Position numbers and translations under genes: made by a program. The notes beneath the pieces were generated by a model. The model did not search any database, had not been told where the DNA came from, and saw only the letters and a list, made by a program, of their open reading frames with translations. From NCBI RefSeq assembly GCF_000380165.1, contig NZ_KB904650.1, positions 86,842 to 145,371 of the forward strand: a stretch of 58,530 nucleotides of DNA, written 5' to 3'. This document shows, one piece after another, positions 17,562 through 37,305 of this stretch. Position 1 is the first letter of the stretch, and each line of letters starts with the position of its first letter. Source of the DNA: Wenjunlia vitaminophila DSM 41686. Lineage in GTDB: Bacteria; Actinomycetota; Actinomycetes; Streptomycetales; Streptomycetaceae.

Positions 17562-18221
17562 AGGTTGATTCAGGGCGCTCACAGGTACTCGACGCCAAAG
17601 CCTTCCTGACCTATGGTCTACACCACTGTAAGGAGCAGGGCCCGCGATCTCCCCCCGAGGAGGAAGTGCGCACGTAGCGACATATGGCACGCAAGCACTG
17701 ATCGGACCGTACCGGCCAAGGGCAGGCCACCGAGCTCAGCGAGCGGAGTGCGTAGCTGGCGACCGGCAGTGAACAGCTATCTGCGGACGTGGGGGATCGC
17801 GCACCCCCAGGTTCAGCTATTCGCCATGGCGTGTGGAGCTTCGCTCCATCAGCTCCGAGCCTCCACGTAGGTTCAGCGAGAGTTACGTCTTTAGACCGGG
17901 ATCCTCTCGGCGCCGTTCCACCTACACGCCAGCCGGCGGCTACCGAGGCGGAGCCCACGGAAGGTGCCCCAAGACGGTGTTCCTACGATCTTCCGAGTCC
18001 ACTGCCGGCCACCGCTTCAATGAGGACGGACGTCCTGCCCCACTGACTGAGTCCGTAGGGCTCGCCCCGAAACGCAAGTCCAGCGAGCACGTTGCGACCG
18101 GAGCGTCTGGGACCACGGCTGGGTCGTCATCTTGTTCATTGGTTTGAAGGCTTCACCGGCCAGCTCAGATTCGCCAAGAAGACCCTAAATATTGGCTCAA
18201 ACAGCAGACGGGAGAGGCGAA
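17562..18221. other. Gene-free stretch between IS remnant and GH84 gene, with two hairpins
   Basis: I find no credible gene here. Two inverted repeats stand out: TGGGGG/CCCCCA with an eight-base loop (17790-17809) and TGGAGC/GCTCCA with a three-base loop (17834-17848). GC content falls toward the right, where the GH84 gene begins. The stretch may contain the promoter of that gene and debris from the insertion. Confidence 0.4.
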
Positions 18222-21200: not shown

Positions 21201-21896
21201 GTGCAGAGCAACTGGCTCAAGATCCACGAGGTGAAGGTCAACACTACGGTCAAGGAAGACGCTTCCGTTCTCTCGGGCGACCTGGACGGCCTGGAGAAGT
21301 TGCTCGACCTCGATATCTTCAGCGGTGTCGACGTTGGAAATACCGGCGGCGAGCTGACCTACAACAACATCAACACTCCGGATGCGACCAATCTGATCCT
21401 GATGAAGAATAGCGGGTCGCAAGTTGGACTGAAGGTCAGGAAGTCCGTGCAGGCCGACGCGACGGGGACCGGGGATTCGGCGTGGATCGACGCTGGCACA
21501 TTCACGGGCGCATATCACAACATTGATCTCCGCAAGTATGCACCGGTCGCCGAGATCAAACTGGAATGGGGAGTCAACTCCGACCTCCAGGTGAATGAGC
21601 TTTACGTCGGGAATAGTGACCAGCGCATCGTCGACGTGACCTCCCTGAAGGAACTCATCGGACGTTACGACAGCGAGGGAGAATTCGGAAACTACGGCAG
21701 CGCTCGCTCCCTGGAGGCGATACTGACAGTAGCCGGCGGTTTCGAAAAGCAGGGAGAACTGCAGAAAGCCGTCGAGCAGATGAGGCTCTTCAAACGTCTG
21801 CTTGACCAGCGGAGGCAGAGTGAAATGGTTTCCGAAAAAGCGTATCGTGTTCTCGCGTCCAGCGCCGACTACCTGATTGAGAAGTGGCAGGTGTGA
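18222..21896 (+). CDS. Secreted GH84 beta-N-acetylglucosaminidase (hyaluronidase/NagH-like)
   Basis: This 1224-residue enzyme should hydrolyse terminal beta-linked GlcNAc outside the cell by substrate-assisted catalysis. It has a signal peptide (about 1-33), an N-terminal GH20b-like domain, and a GH84 catalytic barrel beginning at FRGFIEGFYGTPWSHE (about 197) with the catalytic Asp pair D311-D312 in FFDDSATNN. VMWTGDNVV-type and NYPVND active-site loops follow, then a helical region. Two discoidin/F5-8C-like modules (about 640-770 and 890-1010) and a helical C-terminus complete it. The ATG follows a GGGAGAGG site. Codons such as AAT, TTT, ATA and GTT are far commoner than in the flanking genes, and an IS110 remnant lies upstream; both suggest horizontal transfer. 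Confidence 0.92.
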   Translation: MRINARRRTSLGTLLASFLILPMLPANVASAEQHQTTTSDSATNGEAECGYALYPAVHSCVAGHRVMKLAGRTINLVLEDSIGENTAAKAQKLFEERGFTVTKAPQDTSGDDIDVLIGTDNNRGADHEYLNGKFEPSISVKKDDGYALRISAADRVIAIMGTDNSGAFYGVTTLDQILEQADGGLTDTLIEDYADVKFRGFIEGFYGTPWSHENRKDLMSFGGDYKMNSYLYGPKNDPYHASRWREPYPAEKLAELKELVGKGLETNVEFVWAAHVGGKIDLGSEADVQALKNKFDQMYGIGVRQFAIFFDDSATNNDQLVNFITRMDSEYIKPKGDVKPIIFCPQYYRKDSGSQATINYLKNISRFPKDVQIMWTGDNVVSPVNQSVIDWVTQYIDRPVYVWWNYPVNDLGRANYVHMGPSRGLQAGVKNVSGFASNPMNQAQASKVSLFSVADYTWNTDKYDYEQSWRDSFGHVIRDDPQAAKALGTFSANASHGLNPFDAGESLYLLPQLETFKQQFAAGEDVSDSGASLTRSFEDIVKAVDTLKAYQGTNGISRELTPWLDEMKKIAQASRNTVQGILGLGEISADDLASVQAAMNLVSERRAELKVAVSSSSRVVAQKEIVPFTEEILSLVEIRLMERLSLPPKMRGFGSTTLDYTRMLDGDMATATDSGAVVSRGAYFGVNLGRKTHINNLLIAMDDTKYYKSGVLEASVDNRTWTKVAEFETSTITAQELNIDAQFLRYRATDEFTDENTGSPNRGLSVKEFQVNVEKPAEVYTNVSTLKTHTLTFEGASAALRNVAEITLEPGDYFGFQFNRLKNARALRIDDGLKFLIPEFSADGRNWSAMSWSDQKVNEAKYVRVRNASQEAKEFALAELSVSFGGATSPSATVHNASVYSGSVRNIVDGDSSTYLWLKGSSGNRHFIFDLGSEIPVYDVLINSDKDVLSSGEIELSSDGVSWRDPITFAGARNINVVDVGGKSARYVKLTDRVQSNWLKIHEVKVNTTVKEDASVLSGDLDGLEKLLDLDIFSGVDVGNTGGELTYNNINTPDATNLILMKNSGSQVGLKVRKSVQADATGTGDSAWIDAGTFTGAYHNIDLRKYAPVAEIKLEWGVNSDLQVNELYVGNSDQRIVDVTSLKELIGRYDSEGEFGNYGSARSLEAILTVAGGFEKQGELQKAVEQMRLFKRLLDQRRQSEMVSEKAYRVLASSADYLIEKWQV

Positions 21897-23905: not shown

Positions 23906-24379
23906 TCAGCGGTCGCCGTCGCCGTCGCCGTTGAGGACGAGCAGCAGGTGGTCGTCCTCACCGTGCCGGAGGGTGCCGGAGCGCTGGAAGCCGAGCTTCT
24001 CCAGCAGCCGGACCGAGCCGGTGTTCCCGACGAAGGGGTCGGCGTACAGGGGGCGGGTCCGCTCCTCCCGGAGGAACAAGGTGAGCGCCTCGGTGCCTAT
24101 CCCCCGCCCCCAGTGGCTCCGACCGAGCCAGTAACCGATGAACCGCTGGTCCCCGGCCCACCAGGCCACGACGTTCCCCGCCGGCTCGCCGTCCACCGTC
24201 ACCGCGCGCACCAGGACGGTGGGGTCGCCGAGGACGCGGGTGGTCCAGTGGGTCATGAAGGCCTCGCGGCCCCGGGGCGTGAACCGCGAGCGCCGGGCCG
24301 CCTCCTCGTCCTGCTCCTGCTCGAAGAACAGCTCCAGGTCCGACTCGACCACGGCTCGCAGTGCCACGCTCATTCCCAT
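23906..24379 (-). CDS. GNAT-family N-acetyltransferase (RimJ/RimL-like)
   Basis: This 157-residue protein has the RimJ/RimL-like GNAT fold with acetyl-CoA loop HWGRGIGTEALTLFL and the later NTGSVRLLEKLGFQRSGTLRHG motif, which is characteristic of Acetyltransf_3 members. It ends in a Gly-Asp repeat (NGDGDGDR). The substrate cannot be predicted. Start could be the first ATG or the one two codons later. It converges on the GDT1-type gene and is not in an operon with it. Confidence 0.9.
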   Translation of the reverse strand: MGMSVALRAVVESDLELFFEQEQDEEAARRSRFTPRGREAFMTHWTTRVLGDPTVLVRAVTVDGEPAGNVVAWWAGDQRFIGYWLGRSHWGRGIGTEALTLFLREERTRPLYADPFVGNTGSVRLLEKLGFQRSGTLRHGEDDHLLLVLNGDGDGDR

Positions 24380-24479
24380 GGGGCGAGTCTGCCACCGGGC
24401 ACTGACACTCCCCCGGTCGCGGGCCGGCGGCCCCGGGTCGGCCGGTGGTGCGGCGGGTGGCCCGGTGCCCCTGCCGGGG

Positions 24480-24815
24480 TCAGTGCCCGCGCGGCGCGTA
24501 CATGATGACGGCCATCCCGACGAGGCAGACCAGTGCCCCGGCGATGTCGAACCGGTCGGGACGGTAGCCGTCGGCGACCGCGGCCCAGGCGAGCGAGCCG
24601 GCGACGAAGACCCCGCCGTAGGCGGCGAGGATACGTCCGAAGTCGCCCTGCGGCTGGAGGGTGGCGACGAACCCGTACAGCCCGAGCGCGACGGCTCCCG
24701 CACCGACCAAGATCCAGCCGCGGTTTTCCCGAACGCCCTGCCAGACCAGCCAGGCCCCGCCGATCTCGAACAGGGCGGCGAGGACGAACAGGGTGACGGA
24801 GCGGGCGACGAGCAC
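24480..24815 (-). CDS. YnfA-family membrane protein
   Basis: This 111-residue protein matches the UPF0060/YnfA family in length and sequence: four helices, with [19 protein letters not shown] in the first loop and the signature [19 protein letters not shown] and [23 protein letters not shown] near the end. YnfA proteins are related to small multidrug transporters. The GTG start follows GAAGGAC by ten bases and removes a proline-rich upstream extension with no family counterpart. Confidence 0.92.
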
Positions 24816-25176
24816 GGCAGCGGGTCCTTCTGGCGGGTCAGCGGGGACGGGAACGGCGACCCGGGAACCGGGAGCGTCCGTCGTTCCCCAGAGGGTCCCA
24901 CGGAGCGGTTCCCGCTGGCCTTCGGGTGGGCGTGGAATTCGCTGTGGGCCCAGATGTGCGGCGGTGACCACGGTACGGGAGAGGCGCGAATGCTTTCCTG
25001 TTACCTCGGTGGGTCCGTGGGACGCGCGACGGCGATGACACGGATCACTTCTGTTTTTCTCCGGACAGCGGATGGCCAGGGGCGGGACCGTTCGGGGTTC
25101 AGATTGTTTCATGCTCCCGCTACCCTGTACGAACCGCTCGTGGGGTCAGGGGAAGGAAAATCAGACGGGGGGTTTG
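24816..25176. other. Intergenic region between YnfA-type gene and T7SS-like operon
   Basis: No gene is supported in these 361 bases. GC content dips between about 24985 and 25140, where the promoter of the T7SS-like operon is expected. TTCAGA and TACCCT separated by 17 bases (ending near 25127) are a possible but weak match. A G-run just before 25177 acts as ribosome-binding site. Confidence 0.35.
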
Positions 25177-25497
25177 ATGGGAGATCCCAACCTCAAGGCG
25201 GACACCGCACGCATCAGACGGTGCGCCGACGACCTGAAACGCGTCCACGACGAGTTCAAGAACAACGCGGAGCCCACTCGCGGTTATGGCGTCGCGGAAC
25301 TCGGTTCCACACTGATCACCTCCGCGTTCGAGGAGTTCGCCGACAACTGGAAGGCGCACCGCGAACGGCTCCAGGAGGAGTTGGCGAAACTCTCGGACAT
25401 CACCGCGAAGGCAGCCGAGACCTACGACAAGGTCGACTCTGACCTGGCCCGCGCGTTACGCGGGAACGACGCCGGCGCCAAGGGAGGACGAACGTGA
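25177..25497 (+). CDS. WXG100-like small T7SS protein
   Basis: This 106-residue, almost entirely helical protein has the size and hairpin layout of WXG100/EsxA-like secretion partners: helix about 5-30, a turn with GYGVAELGS, helix about 48-95. The turn lacks a Trp-x-Gly motif; a Trp appears later (FADNWKAHRERL). It probably pairs with the product of the overlapping downstream gene. The leucine in LARALRGND is encoded by the rare codon TTA (25456-25458), so translation may depend on the bldA tRNA. Confidence 0.7.
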   Translation: MGDPNLKADTARIRRCADDLKRVHDEFKNNAEPTRGYGVAELGSTLITSAFEEFADNWKAHRERLQEELAKLSDITAKAAETYDKVDSDLARALRGNDAGAKGGRT

Positions 25498-26951
25498 CAC
25501 GTCCGACCGGTTGGGAGGTCGTCGGCGAGTCGTCGGACCCGGTGCCCGGCGACCCGATGCAGGTCGCGGCCCTCGGCGCGAAGCTGCGCAGGACGGCCGA
25601 CGCGATCGTCAGGCAGGCGGACGAACTCAGGGCCATGGCGTCCGTCGAGTCCTGGAAGGGCAAGGCCGCCGACGAGTTCCGTGATCAGGCCGAGAAGGCC
25701 TCGGACAAGTTACGCAAGGCCTTCCACCGTTACGACGCGGCGGCCAAGGCACTCGGCACCAGGGTCGAGGAGGCCTACGCCGGAGAAATCCACGAGGCCC
25801 AGCGACTGGCCGACAAGGCGTTGCAGGACGCGAAGGACCACCACGCCGAGTACCTGTCGATGGTCAAGGCGCTCGATCACCTGCCGGAGGGCTCCTCCGA
25901 CGACCCGGCGTACCGCAGGATCACCACCAAACGGGACAACGCGCAGGAAGTCCTCTCGGAAGCCCGCGACCGGGTGCTCGCCGCAAAGCAGCACCACGAG
26001 GAGGCCGCGAAGGCCGCCGCCGACGCCATTCGAAAGGCGATCTCGCACGACGGCCTGAAGGACGGCGGTTGGTACAAGTTCAAGAAATGGGTCCACGACA
26101 ACGCCGATCTCATCAAGAAGATCGCCGATATCGCCGGGTGGGTCGCCACCGTCTGCGGAATCCTGTCCCTGTGTGTGGGCTGGATACCGTTGGTCGGGCA
26201 GGCGCTCGCCGGCATCCTGGGAACGATCGCGCTGATCGCGACGCTGGTGGCTCTCGGCGCTCATCTCCTGCTCGCCCTCGCGGGCGAGGGCAGTTGGCTC
26301 GACGTCGGGTTGGACGTCGTGGCGCTGGCCACGTTCGGCATAGGCCGGGGGGCGCTGGGAGGGGTTCGCGCGGCAAGCGCCGCCACCAGGGCGAGCGCGA
26401 GGAGCGCAGCGTTCGGGCGGGGCATGTCGCGTGTCACCGGTCAGGCGGCGCGGCGGGGCACCGCGGCCAACCGCCGGGCGGTGGAGGCGTCGTGGCGGGC
26501 CGCCAACCGGCAGGTGCCCGGCGCTCCCAGGGGGGTGCACGCGGCCGAGGCACTGGCGAGGTCCCCCAGGGGTTTCTTCCCCGGCTGGTCGAGCATCCGG
26601 TCAGGCCTCAGCCCCGTGGAGGTCACCAAGGAGAGCTGGCAGTCGGTCAGGGGCCTGTCTGACCTGAAGAACGTGCCCGCGCTGTTCAAGGGTGAGACGT
26701 GGCGCGGTGCCTCCGTCCTCGTCGGGGACTCCGGGTTGTTGAAGGAGGCCGACGACCTCGCGAGGATCAACCCGTCCCTGTTCGCGGACGACGCGGTCAG
26801 GACGCACATGGACGCCATCCGGCGCCAGACCGTGGTGTGGGGCGGCAACACCCTGGCGGCCACCGCGGTGGACATCGGTGACAAGGCGAAGGTGTTCGAC
26901 GACCTGCTGGGCGTCAAGCAGCCTCTCACCAGGGAGGTCGGGGCACCATGA
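25494..26951 (+). CDS. Putative T7SS-secreted protein with WXG100-like N-terminus
   Basis: This 485-residue protein begins with a helical hairpin carrying WxG (W54-K-G56 in VESWKGKAADEFRDQAEK). A long coiled-coil-like helical region (about 60-200), a hydrophobic section with several helices (about 205-290, WVATVCGILSLCVGWIPLVG) and an Arg/Ala-rich C-terminal part follow. This is the build of LXG/T7SS-exported polymorphic-toxin-like proteins, but I recognise no toxin domain at the C-terminus. It overlaps both neighbours by four bases. A TTA codon (25710-25712, in SDKLRKAF) suggests bldA control. Confidence 0.75.
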   Translation: MTRPTGWEVVGESSDPVPGDPMQVAALGAKLRRTADAIVRQADELRAMASVESWKGKAADEFRDQAEKASDKLRKAFHRYDAAAKALGTRVEEAYAGEIHEAQRLADKALQDAKDHHAEYLSMVKALDHLPEGSSDDPAYRRITTKRDNAQEVLSEARDRVLAAKQHHEEAAKAAADAIRKAISHDGLKDGGWYKFKKWVHDNADLIKKIADIAGWVATVCGILSLCVGWIPLVGQALAGILGTIALIATLVALGAHLLLALAGEGSWLDVGLDVVALATFGIGRGALGGVRAASAATRASARSAAFGRGMSRVTGQAARRGTAANRRAVEASWRAANRQVPGAPRGVHAAEALARSPRGFFPGWSSIRSGLSPVEVTKESWQSVRGLSDLKNVPALFKGETWRGASVLVGDSGLLKEADDLARINPSLFADDAVRTHMDAIRRQTVVWGGNTLAATAVDIGDKAKVFDDLLGVKQPLTREVGAP

Positions 26952-27562
26952 CGGACGGCGCGGTCCAGGGCCCGCCCACCGACTACCGGCTGCTGCTCCC
27001 CGAGGACTGGTTCAGGATCGACCTGGAGCCCGGCCGCCGGGACCGGTCGGTGCGGGCACTGGTCGATCGGCAGTTCCGCGGGCTGGACGACGCGCCCCTG
27101 GTCAAGCAGCGGGTGCGGGAGGAGATGCTCGCCCACGCCGAGAAGGCCTACCGCGGCGGGGGCATCGAGCTGTACCTGGGCCTGCAGTCCGCCGGCCCCA
27201 TGCCGCTCCCGGCGTCCCTGGTGGTCACGCTCGCGGCACCGGACCCCGGCGGGGCCGCCGTGCCGGTGGACGCGTTCGCCGAGTACCTGAAGCGGCAGGG
27301 CCCTTCGGAACGCGAGGTGACCGTCGAGGACCTGCCCGCGGGTCCTTCGGTGCGCGCCCGGCTGCGGACCGTGCCCACCGAGGACGCCGGGGACGCCGTG
27401 CTGGGCAACACGCTTCCGGTCACGAGCCTCGACTACCACGTTCCCGTGCCGAGGAGCACCGCGTTCCTGCTCCTGTCGTTCTCCACGCCCCTGGACGCGC
27501 TCGCCGACGCCATGGTTGACCTGTTCGACGCCGTTGCCGGGTCGTTGCGCTGGAAGGAGTGA
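26948..27562 (+). CDS. T7SS-operon protein A, unknown function
   Basis: This 204-residue soluble protein of unknown function begins DYRLLLPEDWFRIDLEPGRRD and ends with a helix (PLDALADAMVDLFDAVAGSLRW). The next gene encodes a protein of the same length and plan: DW near residue 20, a central strand pair (IELYLGLQSAGPMPLPASLVVTL here, IHAFALYRDALPDALAVLEV there) and a terminal amphipathic helix. They look like diverged tandem duplicates. Overlap by ATGA with the secreted-protein gene suggests a chaperone, immunity or EspG-like role, without direct evidence. Confidence 0.7.
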   Translation: MTDGAVQGPPTDYRLLLPEDWFRIDLEPGRRDRSVRALVDRQFRGLDDAPLVKQRVREEMLAHAEKAYRGGGIELYLGLQSAGPMPLPASLVVTLAAPDPGGAAVPVDAFAEYLKRQGPSEREVTVEDLPAGPSVRARLRTVPTEDAGDAVLGNTLPVTSLDYHVPVPRSTAFLLLSFSTPLDALADAMVDLFDAVAGSLRWKE

Positions 27563-28173
27563 GACCTGTCGTGGCCGGCTCGTGGAACTGCGGTGTCTCC
27601 TGCCCCCGGGACTGGGTCCCCCTGCCGCTGGCGGAGGACGTCGATCCGTGGGTCTGGGCGCGGCACGAGGCGCCCGCCGTCGCGGCGCTCGCCGGTCACG
27701 CCGCTCCGGAGCCCGAGTTCCTCCGCGCGCTCGAGAACGACCTGGCGAGCCGGGCTGAGGACAGCCGTTCCCGGGCGCCGATCCACGCCTTCGCGCTGTA
27801 CCGGGACGCCCTGCCCGACGCCCTGGCGGTCCTGGAGGTGACGAGCGTCGAGCCCGACGACACGGTTCCCGAGATCACCCTGCGGTGGCTCGAGGAGGCC
27901 TTCACCGCGCCCGAGTTCGGGACGGCGCAGAGCCTCAGCGCCAGGCTCCCGGCCGGGCCCGCGGTGCGCCTGCGCCAACGGTTCGCGGGGGCGGAGGCGT
28001 ACCCCGGCGGCGGACGGCCCGTGGTGGAGACCCTCACGTACGGGGTCCTGCCCCGCGGCTTCGACCTGGCCGTGCTCGTCCTCGTGTCGTGGACCGCCCT
28101 GGCCGCGGGTGACGCCCTGGTGGAGACCGCGGACCGGATCGCCGAGACGCTGCGGGTGACGCCGGCGGGCTGA
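27559..28173 (+). CDS. T7SS-operon protein B, diverged paralogue of protein A
   Basis: This 204-residue protein resembles the product of the preceding gene in length, in its DW motif near the start (SCPRDWVPLPLAED) and in its last helix (ALVETADRIAETLRV). No known domain is recognised. The GTG start overlaps the upstream stop (GTGA); a second GTG four codons later is possible. It is the last gene of the four-gene operon and is followed by a strong hairpin. Confidence 0.68.
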   Translation: MRPVVAGSWNCGVSCPRDWVPLPLAEDVDPWVWARHEAPAVAALAGHAAPEPEFLRALENDLASRAEDSRSRAPIHAFALYRDALPDALAVLEVTSVEPDDTVPEITLRWLEEAFTAPEFGTAQSLSARLPAGPAVRLRQRFAGAEAYPGGGRPVVETLTYGVLPRGFDLAVLVLVSWTALAAGDALVETADRIAETLRVTPAG

Positions 28174-28179
28174 GGAGCG

Positions 28180-28213
28180 CCGGCCGCCCGTGCCACCGGC
28201 CACGGGCGGCCGG
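28180..28213. terminator. Convergent terminator between T7SS operon and SDR gene
   Basis: A perfect 13-base stem (28180-28192 with 28201-28213) with an eight-base loop begins seven bases after the upstream stop codon. It can serve both converging transcripts. Confidence 0.75.
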
Positions 28214-28230
28214 TGGCACGGGCCGGCCAC

Positions 28231-28998
28231 TCACAGGTGCGAGCCGCCCGTGGCGTCGATGACCTGCCCGGTCACCCAGCGGGCGGCGTCGGAGGCGAGG
28301 AAGGCGACGATGTCGGCGACGTCGTCGGGCAGGCCCACCCGTCCGAGCGCCGAGAACCCGGACGCGTACTGCTGGGCGTCCGGGTTCCCGCGCAGCCAGG
28401 GCGCGTTGAGGTCGGTGTCGATGATGCCGGGCGCGACCGCGTTGACGGTGACGCCCCGCTCGCCGAGGGTCTTGGCCAGGGTGCGGGTGAAGGTGTCCAC
28501 GGCGCCCTTGGTCATGCTGTACGCGATGATGTCGGGCAGTGCTATGCGCGAGGTCGCGGAGGAGACGTTGACGATGCGCCCTCCGTCCCGCAGCCGCTTC
28601 AGTCCCTGCTGGGTCACGAAGAACAGGGCACGGACGTTGACCTCGAAGAGTTCGTCGAAGGCCTCGCGGGTGGTCTCCTCGACCTCGGCCCGGGGGCTGA
28701 TGCCCGCGTTGTTGACCAGGATGTCGAGCCCGGCTCCGGGACCGTGCTCCAGCACCAGGCGGTCGAACTCCGCCCACAGCGTCTCCACGTCGCCCGCGGT
28801 CCCCAGTTCGGCCCGCAGGGAGAACGCCGAGCCGCCGGCGGCCCGGATGGCGTTGACCGTCTCCTCCGCGGCCCCGGTGTTGCGGCCGTGGTGCACGGCC
28901 ACCAGTGCGCCCTCGCTGGCGAGCCGCTCGGCGGTGGCCCGTCCGATGCCGCGGCTGCCGCCGGTGACCAGTGCGACCTTGCCCGTCAGTGCGCCCAT
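28231..28998 (-). CDS. Short-chain dehydrogenase/reductase
   Basis: This 255-residue SDR has the classical coenzyme motif TGGSRGIG (about 12-19), NNAG (96-99) and the catalytic Ser146/147, Tyr160 and Lys164 (YSMTK). Residues HHGRN after the second strand suggest NADP(H) use. It most resembles bacterial 3-oxoacyl-ACP-reductase-like SDRs that are controlled by a divergent TetR gene. It is divergent from the TetR gene with an 80-base promoter region between them. Confidence 0.92.
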   Translation of the reverse strand: MGALTGKVALVTGGSRGIGRATAERLASEGALVAVHHGRNTGAAEETVNAIRAAGGSAFSLRAELGTAGDVETLWAEFDRLVLEHGPGAGLDILVNNAGISPRAEVEETTREAFDELFEVNVRALFFVTQQGLKRLRDGGRIVNVSSATSRIALPDIIAYSMTKGAVDTFTRTLAKTLGERGVTVNAVAPGIIDTDLNAPWLRGNPDAQQYASGFSALGRVGLPDDVADIVAFLASDAARWVTGQVIDATGGSHL

Positions 28999-29016
28999 TG
29001 CACCTTTTCCCTTCCA

Positions 29017-29066
29017 TAGTGATCGCTACAGAACGGTGAGCATACCGGTTTCTGTAGTGACCGCTG
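29017..29066. promoter_or_regulatory. Paired TetR operator candidates between SDR and tetR genes
   Basis: Two copies of a near-palindromic 12-mer, TAGTGATCGCTA (29017-29028) and TAGTGACCGCTG (29055-29066), lie 38 bases apart. Together with the flanking ACAGAA and TTCTGT they form a large dyad. TAAATT (29067-29072) six bases before the TetR ATG is a likely -10 for a leaderless tetR message. The divergent TetR regulator is the expected ligand-responsive repressor. Confidence 0.65.
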
Positions 29067-29078
29067 TAAATTTGGTCC

Positions 29079-29696
29079 ATGACGACCAGGAAGGGCAGGC
29101 CGAGGAGCTTCGACCGGGCCACCGCGCTGTCGCGCGCCACCGAGCTGTTCTGGCGGCACGGGTACGAGGGCACCTCCATCGCCGACCTGACCGGAGCCAT
29201 GGGGATCTCCCCGCCGAGCCTGTACGCGGCGTTCGGGGACAAGCGCACGCTCTTCACCGAGGTGGTGGACGCGTACACCCGCACCCACGGCGCCTTCCTG
29301 TGGGAGTCGCTCGAGGAGGACGACGTCCGGGCGGCGTTCGCCGGGATACTGCGCACGGCGGCGGAGACCTACACCGCTCCCGGGCACCCCACGGGGTGCC
29401 TGGTCATCACCGCGGCCACCAACTGCTCGCCCCACTCCTGCGAGGTCGAGCAGGACCTGCGGGAACGGCGGGTGGCGACCGTCAACGCGTTCCAGGCACG
29501 CCTGTCCAGGGCCGAGGCGCGGGGACAGCTACCGGCCGGCACCGAGCCCCGGGCCCTGGCCGTCTACTTCGGTTCCGTGATCGAGGGCATGTCCCAGCAG
29601 GCTCGGGACGGGGCCACCCGCGAGGAGCTGGAACAGGTGGCCGACCTGGCGATGGCGGTGTGGCCGCAGGCTCCCCCGGCCCCGGACGGGACCTGA
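29079..29696 (+). CDS. TetR-family transcriptional regulator
   Basis: This 205-residue regulator has a standard TetR N-terminal HTH (about 10-57, ALSRATELFWRHGYEGTSIADLTGAMGISPPSLYAAFGDKRTLF). The C-terminal ligand domain contains GCLVITAATNCSPHSCEVEQDLRERR, as in TetR_C_33/AcrR-like members that control SDRs. It probably represses itself and the divergent SDR gene through the repeated operator between them. No ribosome-binding site is present. Confidence 0.93.
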   Translation: MTTRKGRPRSFDRATALSRATELFWRHGYEGTSIADLTGAMGISPPSLYAAFGDKRTLFTEVVDAYTRTHGAFLWESLEEDDVRAAFAGILRTAAETYTAPGHPTGCLVITAATNCSPHSCEVEQDLRERRVATVNAFQARLSRAEARGQLPAGTEPRALAVYFGSVIEGMSQQARDGATREELEQVADLAMAVWPQAPPAPDGT

Positions 29697-29833
29697 CCCC
29701 GGGGCCGCCGTGCCGGGAGTGACCGGTGGTCCCCTTGGTTCGCCCGGGGACGGCCGCGGGGGAGAATGCGGAGTCGTGGTCGCAGCGGGGACGGTGCCCC
29801 GGCGGCCGTCACGGGCACGTGCGGAGGGGGACC

Positions 29834-31612
29834 ATGCCTTGCCTGGAGGACTACCTGCTCGCCGTTCGGGTGACCGGCGCGCCGCCGGCGCCGCCCGGCC
29901 TGGAAACGGTCAGCCTCTCCTGGCGACCCGGGACGGACCGCCGCGGTCAGCCGGTTGACGCGGTCCGCGACGCCGTGGCCGCCCTCGACGCCGTCGCCGA
30001 CAGCGGCCTGACCACGGCCGACAGCTACACGCGCATCGTCTTCCTGGCCCCGCCGGGCCCGACGGGGCTGGTGCCGTACGCCGCGCTGCACGGGTTCCTC
30101 AACCGGTGGATCGACGTCCACGCCGACGGGGCGGTCCTGGAGATGCCCGGTGCGGGCGGGCCGGCCGGGGAGTTCGTTGCGCCGCGGCGTCCCGAGCCGC
30201 ACCTGATGTGGGCGCAGCTCGGCGGTCCGCGCAGGACCGACCTGCCGTGGGTCTTCTACCCGGAGGACTGCGACGGGGAGCTGGACCCGCGGGCCATGGG
30301 GGTCGTCCACCGCGCCGCGCGGCTGCGGATGGTTCCGCCGGGGTCCGCGACCGCGGCGTTCGCCATGCTGGCCGAGGTCGCGAGGTTACGGCGCCGGGGC
30401 GACGCGTTGCGGTTCCCCTACGTCTCCACCGGCCTGGAGCCCCTCCCCGTCAGCAAGACCGATCCCCACCAGGGCATCGACCTGGAGGCGATCAGGAGGG
30501 CCGCGGCGGAGTACCGCAGGATGCTCAGGAACGCCCTGCCCAGGGCGGAGCCGGTGCCCGCCCAGCCGGTCGGTCCGCTCAACCAGCGGATCACGGAAGC
30601 CAACACGGTGGACGCCCGGGAGGTGCTGCCCCGTCTGGGTTCGCGCCCCGGCGACGGCTCCGGCTGGTCCTGCCCGCGTGCCCCGCTCGGCCACAGCGAG
30701 GACTGGACACTGAGGTTGCACCCGGACAACCGGCTGCGCTGCCACTACTGCGAAGCGGAGAAGATCACACTGGTCCGGCTGGTGGCCGAGACGCTCGACC
30801 TGACGCCGGACCAGGCGGCGGCGTTCCTCCTGGACCCTCCGGGTGCGGCGGCGCCGCCCCGCGGGACCGCGGTGGTGGCCCACATCGTCGGCCGGGGTCC
30901 GGCGGGTTACCGGTGCCTGATCCCCAACCCGACCGGGCCCCGGCAGTCCGCCGGGGTGCTGCCGTTCGCCGAGGTGGGACGGATTCGGAACTGGGCCGGG
31001 GGCCGGCCCCCGACGGTGGGCGACACCGTCGTCGCGCTGGTCGTCGGCTCCGTCCCCGGTCCGGGGGGCGGCGCCACGGCACGGCTCTCGCTGACGGACG
31101 GGGAGCTGGTGGAACGGGTCCTGGCCGGTTTCGTACCGTCGCTGGCCAGTGGGCAGGTCGTGGTCCAGGGCGTCGCCCGGTGCGCCGGAGCCCAGACCAA
31201 GGTCGCCGTGGCCCCCGCGGACCTCGGCATCGACGCCCGGGGCACCTGCGTGGGCAAGGGGGGAGCGAACCGTCCCCGCCGGGCGGCCCGGTTCCTGACC
31301 CGCGGCCTGACCAGTGAGCGCATAGAGATCATCAACTACGCCAGTGACCCGGCCACGTACCTGGCCAACGCCCTGGCCCCGGCGAAGGTGGAGGTCTCCG
31401 ACGTCCGCATCGAGGGTCGTCAGGCACGGGTCACCGTCCCGCGCAGCCAATGCAACACGGCGATCGGGCGCGGCGGCCTCAACGCGCAGCTCGCGGGGCA
31501 ACTGACGGGCCTGCGGGTGTACGTGGTCGAGGCCGGCACCACGCCAGCGACGCCCACCCGCGGTCCTGACGGGGTGCCGCCACCGGCCGGGCGGGCGCCC
31601 GGTCAGCGCTGA
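29834..31612 (+). CDS. NusA-related protein with CHC2-like zinc finger, S1 and two KH domains
   Basis: This 592-residue protein has an unusual domain order. Residues 1-270 match nothing I know. Residues 280-325 look like a primase CHC2 zinc finger: C280, H287, C303 and C306 as ligands, then the helix ITLVRLVAETLDLTPDQAA that matches the end of that domain. An S1-like barrel (about 345-435) and two KH domains (about 443-575) follow. KH1 reads VQGVARCAGAQTKVAVAP and CVGKGGANR, then DPATYLANALAPAKV; KH2 has AIGRGGLNAQLAGQLTG. These closely follow NusA. It is too different to be the housekeeping nusA, lacks the NusA N-terminal RNA-polymerase domain and may bind RNA or nascent transcripts. GGAGGGGG precedes the ATG. 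One TTA codon (30386-30388) suggests bldA control. Confidence 0.8.
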   Translation: MPCLEDYLLAVRVTGAPPAPPGLETVSLSWRPGTDRRGQPVDAVRDAVAALDAVADSGLTTADSYTRIVFLAPPGPTGLVPYAALHGFLNRWIDVHADGAVLEMPGAGGPAGEFVAPRRPEPHLMWAQLGGPRRTDLPWVFYPEDCDGELDPRAMGVVHRAARLRMVPPGSATAAFAMLAEVARLRRRGDALRFPYVSTGLEPLPVSKTDPHQGIDLEAIRRAAAEYRRMLRNALPRAEPVPAQPVGPLNQRITEANTVDAREVLPRLGSRPGDGSGWSCPRAPLGHSEDWTLRLHPDNRLRCHYCEAEKITLVRLVAETLDLTPDQAAAFLLDPPGAAAPPRGTAVVAHIVGRGPAGYRCLIPNPTGPRQSAGVLPFAEVGRIRNWAGGRPPTVGDTVVALVVGSVPGPGGGATARLSLTDGELVERVLAGFVPSLASGQVVVQGVARCAGAQTKVAVAPADLGIDARGTCVGKGGANRPRRAARFLTRGLTSERIEIINYASDPATYLANALAPAKVEVSDVRIEGRQARVTVPRSQCNTAIGRGGLNAQLAGQLTGLRVYVVEAGTTPATPTRGPDGVPPPAGRAPGQR

Positions 31613-32526
31613 GACGTGCCCGGGCCGCGGCGCGCCACCCCCGCCGCGGTGCCGGGGCGCGGCGCGGGCACCGACGCCTGTGGGGTGTCCTCGCCGGACG
31701 GCCTCCCCCGCGACGCGCCCTGCTGGGCCCGGAACACCGTGGGGGGCACCCCGACGCGCCGGGAGAACAGGCGGCTGAAGTACGCCGGGTCGTGGTACCC
31801 CACGGCGCGCGCCACCGCGGCCACGGTCAGGTCGGTGGTGCTCAGCAGGCCCTTGGCGTAGGTGAGGCGGCGCCGCAGCAGGTAGTCGGTGGGTGTGGAG
31901 CCGGTGAGCCCGCGGACCTTGGCGGTGAGGGTGTCCGGGGACACCCCGAGGCGGCGGGAGAGCTCCCGGAGGTTGGGGCGCTCGTCGAGGTGGTCGTCGA
32001 GGACGCTGACCGCCCGTTGGGCCAGGGACAGGCCCGGGGCGTCCTGGCGCGCGGTGGTGGCGATCAGACGGTGCAGCAGGGCGCTCGCCTCCAGGTCACG
32101 CAGGAGGGAGTCGGGGCGGTGGGCGGTCTCGACGACGGCGGTGAAGGCCCGTTGGAGGTCCGCGGAGTCCCCGGTGCCGACGACGGGCGACTCGACGCCG
32201 AGCAGGCCGAGCCCCTCGTAGGCCGCGGCCGCCGGGCCCTGGAACAACAGCCACTGTTCCGACCAGGTGGCGCCGACGGTGGGGCCGTAACTGTGCGGGA
32301 CCCCCGCCCGCAACCACAGCAGCGTTCCGGGGGTGACCCGGTGGGTCTGGCCCGAGCCGATGCGCAGCCATCCCTCGCCGCGGGTGACCAGCACCGCGCA
32401 GTAGCTGGAGATGACCCGTGCGATGTGCCGCCGGTACTGGTCCTCCACCCATCCGACCCCGGTCAGTGCCAGACCGAGCTGCTCCACACCGGGGGCGGGG
32501 GTCAGGAACCGGGAGCCGGTGCGCAT
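31603..32526 (-). CDS. AraC-family regulator (AraC-type cupin sensing domain)
   Basis: This 307-residue regulator has an N-terminal cupin (about 10-165, GEGWLRIGSGQTHRVTPGTLLWLRAGVPHSYGP) typical of AraC proteins that sense sugars, and a C-terminal HTH pair (about 185-280, LRELSRRLGVSPDTLTAKVRGLTG and ARAVGYHDPAYFSRLFSRRVG). A Pro/Gly-rich tail follows. The ATG has an AAGGAAGG ribosome-binding site. It is divergent from the GH20 gene and is its probable regulator. Its end overlaps the end of the NusA-related gene by ten bases. Confidence 0.92.
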   Translation of the reverse strand: MRTGSRFLTPAPGVEQLGLALTGVGWVEDQYRRHIARVISSYCAVLVTRGEGWLRIGSGQTHRVTPGTLLWLRAGVPHSYGPTVGATWSEQWLLFQGPAAAAYEGLGLLGVESPVVGTGDSADLQRAFTAVVETAHRPDSLLRDLEASALLHRLIATTARQDAPGLSLAQRAVSVLDDHLDERPNLRELSRRLGVSPDTLTAKVRGLTGSTPTDYLLRRRLTYAKGLLSTTDLTVAAVARAVGYHDPAYFSRLFSRRVGVPPTVFRAQQGASRGRPSGEDTPQASVPAPRPGTAAGVARRGPGTSQR

Positions 32527-32540
32527 GCGGCCTTCCTTTC

Positions 32541-32572
32541 GGACTGAGTCCAACCACCGCCGGGACGAGTCC
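32541..32572. promoter_or_regulatory. Repeated GGAC-nn(n)-GTCC motif between AraC and GH20 genes
   Basis: GGACTGAGTCC (32541-32551) and GGACGAGTCC (32563-32572) are related small palindromes whose starts are 22 bases apart, about two helical turns. AraC-type dimers often bind direct repeats with this phasing. They lie 15-46 bases upstream of the AraC start codon. Confidence 0.4.
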
Positions 32573-32735
32573 ATGGATGCGGTGCCGGGGTCCCCCCGAG
32601 CATGGTCCACAGGCACCACGCTGTCCACGCCCGCTTTTCCCCGCCGAACCCGACCCGCGTGGCGCTGGACCGGGCTGTGGCCCCGCCCCCACGAGGCGGC
32701 GCGGAGGTCCCGCGCCGCCGCCCGCGAGGAGAGAC

Positions 32736-35480
32736 ATGCACAGATCCAGACACCATCGGCCCAGACACCATCGGCGGCGCCGCGCCCTCGCGCGGACCTG
32801 GTTGGTCACCGCCGTCGCGGCGGTGACCGCCCTGACGTCGCTGGGCGGCGCCCCGGCGCGGGCAACGACGGGTGGGGCCGCCCCGGCCGCGTCCGCGCCG
32901 GTCACGGTCCCCGCGCTGTCCCAGTGGCAGGCACGGGACGGCGCGTTCGAGTTCACCTCCCACAGCAGGGTGCTGGTGGAACCCGGGCAGAAGTCGGTCC
33001 ACGACGACGCGGCGACCTTCACGGACGACCTGGTGCGGGAGACCGGCGAACGCGTCCCCGTGGTGCACTCCACCGCGGCGGCGAAGGCCGGTGACATCGT
33101 GCTGCGCCTCGACGGCTCCCGTTCGGAACTCGGCGCGCAGGGGTACGCCCTCGAGGTCGGCGACACCATCGACGTCGTCGCCGCGACGGACACCGGCGCG
33201 TTCTACGGCACCCGCACCGTGCTGCAACTGCTGCGCAACGGGACCCGGGTGCCGGCCGGGCGGACCGTGGACGTCCCGCAGTACGCCGAGCGCGGGGTGG
33301 GGGTGTGCGCCTGCATCATCAACGTCTCCACCGCCTGGTTCGAACGTCTGCTGAAGGACGCCGCGTACCTCAAGCTCAACCAGCTCTGGATCGAACTGAA
33401 GGTCAAGAGCCGGGCCCACCCCGAGGCCAACGAGTGGGGCTACTACACCCCGGCGCAGGTGGCCGCGTTGCAGCGGCTCGCCGACAAGTACCACATCACG
33501 CTGGTCCCCGAGGTCAACTCCCCCGGCCACATCGAGCCCTGGATACGCAACCGGCCGGACCTCCAGCTCACCGACACCAGCGGCAACAAGCAGGTCAGCC
33601 GGCTGGACATCACCAAGCCCGAGGCGTTCACCTTCCTGACCGGCGTCATCGACGAGTACCTCGAGGTCTTCCGCACCCCCTACTGGCACATGGGGGCCGA
33701 CGAGTACATGCTCGGTTCGGACTACTCGAGGTACCCGCAGCTCGCCGCCTACGCCAAGGAGAAGTTCGGTCCCGACGCCGTCCCGCAGGACGCGTTCGTC
33801 GACTTCGTCAACCGGGTCAACGCCTACGTCAAGGCGAAGGGCAAGACGCTGCGGATCTGGAACGACGGCATCACCTCCGCCGCGACCCAGGAACTGGACG
33901 CCGACATCGTGGTGGAGCACTGGACCGGCACCGACGTCAGGCCCGGTCAGTTGCTGGCCCGCGGGCACCGGCTGATGAACGCCAGCAACGACCTGTACCA
34001 CGTGCGCGGCGCCTACGGGGTGAACAGCAAGCGGCTGTACGACCGGGGTTGGAACCCGCGCGTCTTCCTCGGCGAGACGCTGCCCTCGAGCGACGGCGTC
34101 ACGGGCGCGAAGGTCACCATGTGGCCGGACAACGGCTCGGGCGCCACCGAGAACGAGGTGGAGTCCGACATGTTCGTGCCGCTGCGGCTCCTCGCCCAGG
34201 CGACCTGGGGCCAGCCGAGGCCGGACGCGGACTTCGCGGCGTTCACTGACCGGGTGGACGCGGTCGGGCGCGCCCCGGGGTTCGACAACGTGGACCGGAC
34301 GCCGGTGGCCCCGGGCACCTACGCCCTCGGCCGCGCCGACCGGTACCTGGCGGCGGGCGACGGGGCGGAGGGCGCCCCGCTCGCCCTGGCCGGGACCACC
34401 TCGGCCTGGGACCTCGGCGCGACCCGGGACGGCTACTACACGCTGCGGGACACGGCGTCCGGGCGGTGCGCGGAGGCCCGGGTCGGCACGCGCTACCTCA
34501 ACACCCCGTTGCAGCCCGGCACCCCGATCACCGCGCAGAGCTGTGACCCCGCCAACCGGCTCCAGCGCTGGCAGCTCGACGTGACGGACGAGGGCACGAC
34601 CCTCACCAACGCGGTCACCCGCATGGTGGCCGTGGTCAACGCCGACGGCGGTCTGGTCCAGCAGGTGCCGGACGGTCACCCGGCGACCCCGTTCGCCCTG
34701 GTCCCCGCGGTGCGGGTGACGGCGGGGACCGACGTGACGACGGTGGTGGACGGCGGGAGCGCCACGTTCACCGTGGAGGTGGAGAACACCACGTCGCTGC
34801 CGGTGAGCGGGGTGTCCGTGCGGCCAGCGGGCGCCGGGGGCTGGACGGTCCTGCCCGACCAGCGGACCGCCGAGACCCTGGCCCCCGGCGAGTCCTGGAC
34901 GGCCACGTTCACCGCGACGCCGCCGAAGGACGCGCCCGCCGGCACCGCGGCGCTCGACGCGACCGTCGGCTACACCCTGGACGGGGCCGCGCACACCGTG
35001 CGGACCGCCGCGGCCGTCCGGCTGAGCTGCGCGGCCGGTCCCACCCGGCCGACCGCCGTGGCCCACGTGGACAGCGAGGAGACCGCGGCGGAGAACGGGC
35101 GGGCCACGAACGTCATCGACGGCGACCCGGCGACCTTCTGGACCACGGAGTGGTCGGCGAAGGAGCCGCTTCCCCCGCACGAGATCCAACTCGACCTGGG
35201 GCGAACGGCCTCCGTGTGCGCGGTGACCTACCTGCCGCGCCAGGGCACCTCGGGCGGCTCGGCCAACGGCCGGTTCGCGGACTACGAGGTGTACCTGAGC
35301 ACCGACGGGACGTCCTGGGGGTCCCCGGTGGCCACCGGGACGTTCCCCAACACCACGGCGGCCCAGTGGGTGCCGTTCCCCACGACCACCGCCCGGTACG
35401 TCCGCCTCGTGCAGTTGAGCGAGGTCAACGGCAAGCCGTGGGGCAGCGCCGCGGAGATCACGGTGGACGCCGTGTCCTGA
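32736..35480 (+). CDS. Secreted GH20 beta-N-acetylhexosaminidase, multidomain
   Basis: This 914-residue exoenzyme removes terminal beta-GlcNAc/GalNAc. After a basic signal peptide (about 1-50) come a GH20b domain (about 60-165), the GH20 barrel (about 170-500) with the catalytic pair D322-E323 in WHMGADEYM, and a ricin-like stretch (about 560-650, YTLRDTASGRCAEA). A NEW3-type beta-sandwich (about 655-750) and a C-terminal F5/8C discoidin domain (about 765-914, NVIDGDPATFWTTEW) complete it. The ATG has a GAGGAGAG site. It is divergent from the AraC regulator, stands alone and ends in a 16-base hairpin. Its codon use is typical for the window, unlike the GH84 gene. Confidence 0.93.
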   Translation: MHRSRHHRPRHHRRRRALARTWLVTAVAAVTALTSLGGAPARATTGGAAPAASAPVTVPALSQWQARDGAFEFTSHSRVLVEPGQKSVHDDAATFTDDLVRETGERVPVVHSTAAAKAGDIVLRLDGSRSELGAQGYALEVGDTIDVVAATDTGAFYGTRTVLQLLRNGTRVPAGRTVDVPQYAERGVGVCACIINVSTAWFERLLKDAAYLKLNQLWIELKVKSRAHPEANEWGYYTPAQVAALQRLADKYHITLVPEVNSPGHIEPWIRNRPDLQLTDTSGNKQVSRLDITKPEAFTFLTGVIDEYLEVFRTPYWHMGADEYMLGSDYSRYPQLAAYAKEKFGPDAVPQDAFVDFVNRVNAYVKAKGKTLRIWNDGITSAATQELDADIVVEHWTGTDVRPGQLLARGHRLMNASNDLYHVRGAYGVNSKRLYDRGWNPRVFLGETLPSSDGVTGAKVTMWPDNGSGATENEVESDMFVPLRLLAQATWGQPRPDADFAAFTDRVDAVGRAPGFDNVDRTPVAPGTYALGRADRYLAAGDGAEGAPLALAGTTSAWDLGATRDGYYTLRDTASGRCAEARVGTRYLNTPLQPGTPITAQSCDPANRLQRWQLDVTDEGTTLTNAVTRMVAVVNADGGLVQQVPDGHPATPFALVPAVRVTAGTDVTTVVDGGSATFTVEVENTTSLPVSGVSVRPAGAGGWTVLPDQRTAETLAPGESWTATFTATPPKDAPAGTAALDATVGYTLDGAAHTVRTAAAVRLSCAAGPTRPTAVAHVDSEETAAENGRATNVIDGDPATFWTTEWSAKEPLPPHEIQLDLGRTASVCAVTYLPRQGTSGGSANGRFADYEVYLSTDGTSWGSPVATGTFPNTTAAQWVPFPTTTARYVRLVQLSEVNGKPWGSAAEITVDAVS

Positions 35481-35486
35481 CGCCCG

Positions 35487-35529
35487 CCCCGGCGCACCGG
35501 CCGGTGCACGCGTGGCCGGTGCGCCGGGG
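35487..35529. terminator. Perfect 16-bp stem terminator
   Basis: 35487-35502 pairs perfectly with 35514-35529 around an 11-base loop. It lies between the converging GH20 and response-regulator genes and probably ends both transcripts. Confidence 0.85.
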
Positions 35530-35536
35530 CCGGCCC

Positions 35537-36229
35537 CTACCGGCCGGTGCGCGGCACCACCAGGCCCGACTCGTAGGCGCTGACCACCGCCTGGGTGCGG
35601 TCGCGCAGGCCGAGCTTGGCCAGGACCCGGCTCACATGGGTCTTGACGGTCTCCTCGCTGACGACCAGGCGCGCGGCGATCTCGGCGTTGGAGAGCCCCT
35701 CGGCGACCAGCCGCAGGACGTCGGTCTCCCGCGGCGTCAGCACGGACCGCGGGTCGGCCGTGCCGGTGGGCCTGGCACGGGGGCGCAGCCGGGCGAACTC
35801 GTCGATCAGGCGGCGGGTGACGGCGGGCGCCAGCAGGGCCTGCCCGGCGGCGACCACCCGGACCGCGTCGAAGAGCTGCTCGGCGGCGGCGTCCTTGAGC
35901 AGGAAGCCGCTGGCGCCGGCGCTGAGCGCGTCGTAGACGTGTTCGTCCAGGTCGAAGGTGGTGAGCATCAGCACCCGCGGCCGGTCCCGGTCGCCCGCGG
36001 CGGCGGTGATCCTCGCCGTGGCCTCGATGCCGTCCACGGTGGGCATGCGGACGTCCATGAGGACGACGTCGGGGTCGCACCGGGCGCAGATCCGGACGGC
36101 TTCCGCGCCGTCGGCCGCGGTCCCCACCACGGTGAGGTCGGGCTGGGTGTCCAGCAGCGCGGCGAACCCGGCCCGGACGACCTGCTGGTCGTCGGCCACC
36201 ACGATCCGCACCGGCCGTCGGTCGTTCAC
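35537..36229 (-). CDS. NarL/LuxR-family response regulator
   Basis: This 230-residue response regulator has an N-terminal receiver domain (D13-D14 acidic pocket, phosphoacceptor D59 in [11 protein letters not shown], Thr in LMLTTF, Lys in FLLKDA). The C-terminal LuxR HTH (about 160-220) reads [22 protein letters not shown] and [17 protein letters not shown]. The GTG start overlaps the kinase stop by four bases. It is expected to act on the divergent ABC transporter promoter. Confidence 0.95.
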
Positions 36230-37305
36230 CGGACCACCACCGGTTGGTGGCTCCGGGCCGTGGGCAGCCTGACCTCCACCAGGAAGCCGCTGACCGGTGC
36301 GGGCCCGGTCCACAGGTCGCCGTCCACGGTCGCCACGCGTTCGCGCATGCCGAGCAGCCCGTGGCCCCGGGTCCGGGTCGGCGCGCCGGGGGTGCCCGTC
36401 GGGTCCGCCGGCCCGGGCCCGTTGTCCCGGACGCGAACCCACAGCGCGTCCTCGGCGTAGTGGAGTTCCACGTCCACCGCGGTGCCGGGGGCGTGCCGCC
36501 GGGCGTTGCTCAGGGCCTCCTGGACGATGCGGTAGGCGACGAGTTCCACTCCGGGGTCGAGGGCGCCGACACGGCCGTGGACGATGAGGCGCACCGGGGC
36601 TCCCGAGGCGTCCCTGGCCTCGTCCACCAGCTCGTTGAGCTCTCCCAGGCCGGGCTGGGGGTGCCGCGCGGGTGCGGTGTCGGCGTCCTCACGGAGCACC
36701 CCGAGCAGCCGGCGCATCTCGGTCAGCGCCGCCCGGGCGGTGTCCCCGATGGCGAGCAGGCGCCGCTCCCCCTCGGGAGGCAGTCCCGGGGTGGTGAACC
36801 GTGCCGTCTCCGCCTGGACGGCGATCAGCGAGATGTGGTGGGCGACCACGTCGTGGAGTTCCCTGGCGATCCGGGCCCGCTCCCCCCTGGCGACGTGCTC
36901 GAGCAGCGTGCTCTCCAGGGTCTCCCTGGAGGTGTGGCGTTCCTCGGCGGCGCCCCGGAGCCGGCGGGACTGCCGCAGCCCGAGCAGGAAGCAGACCGCG
37001 AGCTGCGCCGTGAGGCCGGCGCCGGTGGGCGGCCGGGGCGTGGCGAAGGTCAGCGCGGTGGCCGCGGTGACCACCGTCGCCGCCGCCAGCAGGTGGCCGC
37101 GCACCACGGCCAACGGCACGGTGGCGGCCAGCGCGAGCAGCAGGGCGACCGGGGGTGTCGCGGACCCGTCGTCCCCCCGCAGGACCACCTCGAGCACCGC
37201 GAGCAGCCCGAGGGCCCCGGCGGACACCGCGGGGAACACCGGTGCGCGCGATATCCGCTGACTTGCCGTCAACGCGCTCCTGATCAGTGCGTTCCCCTGC
37301 CTCAT
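36226..37305 (-). CDS. Two-component sensor histidine kinase (HisKA_3)
   Basis: This 359-residue membrane kinase has four predicted helices (about 25-110), a HisKA_3 dimerisation domain with phosphoacceptor H151 in [18 protein letters not shown], and a C-terminal HATPase domain with the N box [14 protein letters not shown] and G box [10 protein letters not shown]. There is no large extracellular domain, so the signal is probably membrane-associated. It is first in an operon with the response regulator and divergent from an ABC exporter, the arrangement of antibiotic- or envelope-stress modules. Confidence 0.94.

Follow-up and report, generated by a model that had tools for sequence, protein, structure and literature searches.

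The window, that is, the whole stretch of DNA analyzed (58,530 nucleotides from Wenjunlia vitaminophila DSM 41686), holds on its forward strand an open reading frame (29834..31612) that is stop-free in translation and encodes a protein of 592 amino acids. The ATG at 29834 aligns with the start of the closest homolog, the S. verrucosisporus copy (L041); farther upstream, position 29726 has a GTG in the same frame. The encoded parts are, in order, a predicted SAVED-like domain, a zinc-type motif, an S1 domain, KH1, and KH2, and this module is conserved in eight copies. The upstream neighbor is a TetR-family regulator (29079..29696, + strand; gap of 137 bp), and the downstream neighbor is a convergent AraC-family regulator (31603..32628, − strand; 3′ ends overlapping by 10 nt); both were named by Pfam, and nothing was found that ties either of them to the system discussed below. 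Among 10 neighbors in the window, Pfam found no protease, NTPase, or Trypco gene, and no vWA, MoxR, or VMAP gene beside the module. An Rfam scan of 24000-37000 gave 0 matches, and a promoter and terminator scan of 29600-31800 gave 0 and 0.

The reading frame has a single TTA codon, at residue 185 (30386..30388, + strand), from which an earlier reading of the sequence only had suggested developmental control. The codon is present; as TTA occurs in two of the eight module regions, and at differing positions, it is weak evidence for such control.

Elsewhere in the window, a type VII secretion-like cluster (25072-28173; EspC-like, T7SS_signal, and two genes without a family) lies upstream of an SDR/TetR pair. 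A GH84-type N-acetylglucosaminidase gene (18192-21896; 1234 aa) has a GC3 of 0.72, compared with 0.81-0.99 for two neighbors on each side, which suggests a foreign origin.

The NusA-Type S1-KH1-KH2 Head

A NusA-type S1-KH1-KH2 head occupies residues 339-570. Residues 451-520 match Pfam KH_5 (E 2.5e-12) and residues 395-564 match the NCBIfam NusA profile TIGR01953 (E 8.6e-36), which matches all eight module copies; the window protein misses the equivalog cut-off of this profile (123.6 vs. 253.4 bits). The best solved relative in a PDB sequence search is Mycobacterium tuberculosis NusA (E 5e-26). In a full-length AlphaFold2 model built from eight homologs (mean pLDDT 77.6), residues 339-570 superpose on M. 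tuberculosis NusA (2atw_A; Z 22.1, rmsd 2.3, 216 aligned, 35% identity), and Foldseek returns 2asb (E 5.8e-19) for the S1-KH1-KH2 part. The S1 (OB-fold) domain spans residues 339-422 (30848..31099, + strand) and the KH1-KH2 pair residues 423-566 (31100..31531, + strand); both assignments had been made by the sequence-only reading, and both are borne out.

Fold and domain order are therefore common to the module and bacterial NusA (2asb/2atw). The two differ in that the module has a predicted SAVED-like domain and a zinc motif where NusA has NusA_N, in that the KH1 GxxG is usually broken in the module, and in that the module copies form a clade separate from canonical NusA. NusA_N (PF08529) has no Pfam match in the window protein and, within its own genome, was found only on contig C47. 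The sequence-only reading was right to call the domain order unusual. A canonical nusA (329 aa, with NusA_N), preceded by a reading frame that we take to be rimP, sits on another contig of the same genome, so the window protein is a second, divergent NusA-type protein.

The GxxG motif of KH1 (GKGG; 31253..31264, + strand) is intact in the window copy and broken in the other seven, whereas that of KH2 (GRGG; 31466..31477, + strand) is intact in 8/8 copies; RNA binding, if conserved, would therefore lean on KH2.

Copies of the Module and Their Gene Contexts

Eight full-length copies were found, all in actinobacteria and with 95 invariant columns in their alignment: three are stand-alone, two are C-terminal on trypsin-STAND proteins, and three are C-terminal on a vWA protein. 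A conserved-peptide scan of 84,980 species genomes, with a four-row alignment as query, gave seven loci from 43 stretches; an earlier contig scan with a single protein as query found no copy. Because the scans need exact conserved peptides, there are at least eight copies. As judged by alignment, the whole module is homologous to the C-terminal parts of the vWA and trypsin-STAND proteins: the window protein is 43-45% identical to the five fused copies over its whole length, and the first position at which stand-alone and fused copies (the latter trimmed by hand) resemble each other lies no more than ~7 residues from the stand-alone start, which gives the module the look of an autonomous unit.

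In genome samples that overlap one another, the module occurs in 1/2 genomes of the genus, 2/394 of the family, and 4/293 of the order (own genome included), and in its own genome only among 394 class genomes and likewise among 396 phylum genomes. The order count leaves out G002:C134 (35%, residues 34-127), which on visual inspection was taken for a chance hit within the frame of an alpha/beta-hydrolase gene, and the class count leaves out G660 and G466, which are partial matches of 54-60 residues (E 6-8e-4). When the full protein was compared with 150 family genomes, 148 matched; apart from the window and the G002 fragment, they did so only from residue ~390 on, and these matches are taken to be canonical NusA.

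Sixty plasmid records match the query; none covers 80% of it, and the best 20 listed match in the S1-KH part only. Mycobacterium accounts for 9 of the 60, and a Mycobacterium lentiflavum plasmid (NZ_CP092424.2; L055 5974-6462) encodes a 162-aa "hypothetical protein" that matches the NusA KH part (38%, E 4e-9). The 19 matching phage records all match in the S1-KH part only, and 25 stretches from viral contigs contained 0 relatives.

The vWA fusions are found in Streptomyces sp. SA15 (L042), S. orinoci (L044), and Streptomyces sp. NTH33 (L047). They are proteins of 1108-1118 aa that are 67-72% identical to one another, are joined to the module by short, Pro/Ala-rich linkers (by eye), and are encoded in an operon of the order Trypco1/trypsin-VMAP/MoxR/vWA. 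Pfam supports this order in SA15 (Trypco1 1.9e-16; VMAP-C 1.9e-27 with Trypsin_2 1.4e-7; AAA_5 3.2e-9); S. orinoci and NTH33 share it by eye, Pfam having covered only the vWA protein in S. orinoci. The names "vWA" and "MoxR" rest partly on operon position, as bpMoxR (0.002) and VWA_CoxE (E 0.0088, 15.9 of 26.4 bits) are sub-cut-off in SA15 and VWA_CoxE is absent from S. orinoci.

The STAND fusions (L043 and L045) are Catenulisporales proteins of 1629 and 1866 aa with N-terminal Trypsin_2 (1.7e-13 and 1e-12), repeats (by eye), and the module at the C-terminus. The label "STAND" is based on sub-cut-off matches to nSTAND_NTPase5 (1.2e-4 and 9.2e-4). A Trypco2 gene precedes each (1.3e-25 and 4e-26), as in trypsin-STAND systems with Trypco2 (compare Avs1b), and the PADLOC Avs1b profile matches L045 (1.1e-6) over the protease part only. 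In Spongiactinospora rosea (L046) the module has a gene to itself; divergently from it run a Trypco2 gene (4.9e-27) and, next, one for a trypsin-STAND protein (Trypsin_2 5.4e-7; PADLOC STAND_TPR 5.4e-89). The other two stand-alone copies, in the window and in S. verrucosisporus, lie among unrelated genes; by eye, no protease, NTPase, or Trypco gene is beside the module in S. verrucosisporus. The association of this architecture with Trypco/trypsin conflict systems had escaped the sequence-only reading.

The Module Tree and the VMAP Loci of the Genome

The tree unites the five fused copies (100/100) and, nested among them, the two STAND copies (100/99), which implies a transfer of the module from one kind of scaffold, vWA or STAND, to the other. 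When four canonical NusAs serve as outgroup, the eight modules remain a single group (100/100), apart from canonical NusA. The stand-alone copies are deeper branches without supported mutual order (the first tree was midpoint-rooted, and L046 was flagged as a long branch).

Two VMAP loci are held by the genome itself: G000:C38 (L054 4991-11892) and G000:C31 (L053 1807-7368). The former encodes Trypco1 (3e-17), a trypsin-VMAP protein (VMAP-C 7.3e-40, Trypsin_2 2e-9), and an AAA_5 ATPase (1.4e-7), and the protein after the ATPase has no Pfam family at E 0.001. Over its residues 1-531 this last protein, taken for the vWA protein of C38, matches that of SA15 with 48.5% identity. The resemblance stops some ten residues short of the SA15 module; the C38 slot carries other cargo, and the NusA-like module is encoded separately in the same cell. 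Between the two loci the vWA cargo differs, being kinase-like by eye in C38 and NB-ARC/TPR in C31. The genome has no Trypco2, no SMODS cyclase, and, by profile, no SAVED domain.

The N-Terminal Domain

The sequence-only reading had left the first 270 residues unassigned. At the level of sequence profiles this stands, and structure prediction now points to a SAVED-like double-Rossmannoid fold over residues 1-234 (29834..30535, + strand; AlphaFold2, VIA-align, Foldseek). Residues 1-245, modeled alone, gave a best model of pLDDT 77.2 and pTM 0.81 (other four models 71 to 50). In a Foldseek search of the PDB, the top 12 rows were chains of four Cap4 SAVED entries, the best with E 2.5e-3 and prob 0.85; 0 of 259 matches fell below 0.001. 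In VIA-align, each of ranks 1-18 went to a SAVED protein (Cap5, Cap4, SAVED-CHAT, CalpL, a viral SAVED ring nuclease, 3TM-SAVED, or Cap14), with Z between 5.4 and 7.2 and an alignment of 155-187 residues, which is most of the domain; the first non-SAVED fold had Z 4.7. As VIA-align warns that Z <8 may reflect merely a common arrangement, the assignment rests on the run of rows and on no single score. The predicted fold resembles that of SAVED domains (Cap4, Cap5, SAVED-CHAT, CalpL, and Cap14) over module residues 5-219, and two beta-P-helix-beta halves (IVFLAPPG... and RLRMVPPG...) can be seen by eye.

Sequence comparison, in contrast, detected no similarity to SAVED domains. Pfam SAVED (PF18145) matches none of the eight members, in whose N-domains the weak Pfam families were DUF7552 (2/8, best E 0.031) and Macro (1/8, E 0.22). 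An N-domain profile search of the PDB gave no match at E up to 5, and the full protein matched nothing in PHROGs at E up to 10 or in PADLOC at E up to 0.1. With hhalign, the N-domain and five Streptomycetaceae SAVED domains gave a probability of 1.1%, a test of little power, because genuine SAVED domains from the same set, paired as controls, gave 28, 0.9, and 83%, and one pair thus scored equally low. A viral structure library gave 104 N-domain matches at E up to 10 and none at 0.001; among the best 50, some of them nameless, no row is named SAVED.

The domain may instead be an unrelated alpha/beta fold, with the SAVED rows reflecting a common arrangement only. The best Z (7.2), the best Foldseek E-value, the missing profile match, and the spread of the five AlphaFold2 models (mean pLDDT 77 to 50) all fit this alternative. 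We nevertheless consider it rather unlikely, as a chance arrangement sits poorly with 18 consecutive ranks drawn from several SAVED subfamilies before the next row, and as nearly the same secondary structure emerges in the full-length model as in the model of residues 1-245.

Discussion

VMAP and STAND conflict-system cargo is a kind already known, and protease-based fusion systems are thought to kill infected cells. We put at about even the chance that the gene described here encodes, as a protein of its own, a portable module of such protease-NTPase systems. Since the module occurs both fused and by itself, and since an operon of its own genome has other cargo in the slot, it has the appearance of a recognition or output part that can be exchanged between systems, here present as an orphan. 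The analysis shows homology, gene context, and a predicted fold; what the module binds, its ligand, its partner, and its phenotype we infer as follows. The SAVED-like half would bind a nucleotide-type signal, and the S1-KH half would engage RNA, the target probably being, as for NusA, the nascent transcript or the RNA polymerase in elongation. The module might thus signal an abnormal state of transcription (e.g., by a phage) along with a second messenger. Behind vWA or a STAND NTPase, the fused module would provide the recognition that activates the trypsin-like protease, the NTPase relaying its signal; the window copy would act in trans, with the Trypco1/trypsin-VMAP/MoxR/vWA system of C38 or alone. 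STAND proteins usually have their sensor at the C-terminus, and a recognition role is favored because the STAND fusions place the module there, with the protease as N-terminal effector. Against this reading, the window and S. verrucosisporus copies have no protease partners nearby, the genome has neither Trypco2 nor an SMODS cyclase, the labels "vWA" and "STAND" depend in part on sub-cut-off matches, the SAVED assignment finds no support from sequence profiles and has Z <8, the KH1 GxxG is broken in 7/8 copies, and eight copies are few.

Part of this architecture has been noticed before. One sentence in section 11 of Kaur et al. (2020; PMC7159879) places a NusA-related S1+KH pair among the effectors of VMAP systems, and the three vWA fusions (L042, L044, and L047) are probably that architecture; the section gives no accession and describes no SAVED-like/zinc part, STAND fusion, or stand-alone gene, and SAVED is named in the portions consulted as a separate nucleotide-binding cargo domain. 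For the module as a whole, the portions consulted of the literature searched (few subscription journals) describe neither the SAVED-like/zinc/NusA combination nor its occurrence in STAND fusions or as stand-alone genes. Within the same coverage, no work was found that joins a SAVED domain with NusA or with a KH domain. The parts consulted of a paper that mentions SAVED and VMAP (PMC10910872) contain no NusA-like protein; those of PMC8195603 treat S1 domains with OST-HTH and do not mention NusA. The characterized sensors of Avs proteins are, in the sections consulted of Doré et al. (2024; PMC10907252), repeats, to which L043 and L045 add a NusA-like RNA-binding head.

Published models disagree on the C-terminal domain of vWA proteins, which is taken as an effector in the relevant part of Kaur et al. 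(2020; PMC7159879) and argued to be a sensor in that of Doré et al. (2024; PMC10907252). The module, being found in the vWA slot, C-terminally on trypsin-STAND proteins, and as a gene by itself, offers a single domain on which the models can be compared in three settings. Should the SAVED-like prediction prove true, the module would link cyclic-nucleotide immune signaling with the RNA-binding machinery of NusA.

Applied to the module, the effector model is a possible, if less probable, account of it: the VMAP peptidase would cleave the vWA protein, as in the model of Kaur et al. (2020) summarized in the sections consulted of Doré et al. (2024; PMC10907252), and the freed NusA-like part would bind RNA polymerase or RNA and block transcription, the stand-alone genes encoding an already-free effector. 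The effector listing of Kaur et al. (2020), the Pro/Ala-rich linkers just ahead of the module, and its apparent autonomy all agree with this; a stand-alone start so close to the start of similarity equally fits an effector released by cleavage in other species. The two STAND fusions speak against it, as the module is there C-terminal and the protease is the N-terminal effector, and a constitutively free toxic effector without its own regulator would be hard to keep.

A bolder conjecture, which we hold to be doubtful, is that the module is a second-messenger-gated NusA, with a SAVED-type sensor in place of the polymerase-binding domain of NusA: an immune cyclic nucleotide would directly redirect elongation, or the protease-NTPase complex would test for phage takeover of transcription.

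Less likely still, the protein is a second NusA with a special task, namely antitermination or elongation within one regulon, and has no remaining link to immunity. The orphan position beside TetR and AraC genes, the two intact GxxG motifs of the window copy alone, and the additional presence of canonical nusA would suit such a factor; its absence from one of the two genus genomes and from nearly all family genomes would not, and neither would the lack of NusA_N or a score below the NusA equivalog cut-off.

The Zinc Motif

Between the N-terminal domain and S1 lies a zinc-binding-type motif, C280-x6-H287-x15-C303-x2-C306 (30671..30751, + strand), exactly as the sequence-only reading described it. 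C280, C303, and C306 are invariant in the eight copies; the histidine is in the same column in seven, and in all eight if a two-residue shift is allowed (L046 has C-x4-H). A helix pair with an invariant TPDxAA follows (residues 313-333; 30770..30832, + strand; model and alignment). The C..H..C..C ligands and following helices are common to the module and the zf-CHC2/DnaG zinc domain; the spacing differs.

The same reading expected both KH and CHC2 similarity, and profile searches recovered the KH part only. Pfam gave no DnaG/CHC2 match at a cut-off of E 10 and no TOPRIM or polymerase family in the window protein; its matches to the zinc region, Zn_ribbon_PriA (E 0.0031, 17.9 of 26 bits, over C-x2-C) and PyrI_C (E 0.35), are sub-cut-off. 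With hhalign, the zinc region and 15 DnaG zinc domains gave 0.2% (thin alignments, no positive control), below the 1.0% of the N-domain used as negative control. Despite its CHCC ligand set and helix pair, a CHC2-type primase-related or primer-binding protein is thus highly improbable, and with CHC2 homology unsupported the primer-binding idea is unsupported too.

Among DnaG sequences themselves, a dnaG at L085 265-3036 (G010:C203) has an in-frame insertion of ~280 aa directly ahead of the second pair of zinc ligands (...YH|CLAGETRV...NILTGN|CFGC...), which is presumably an intein in the primase zinc site.
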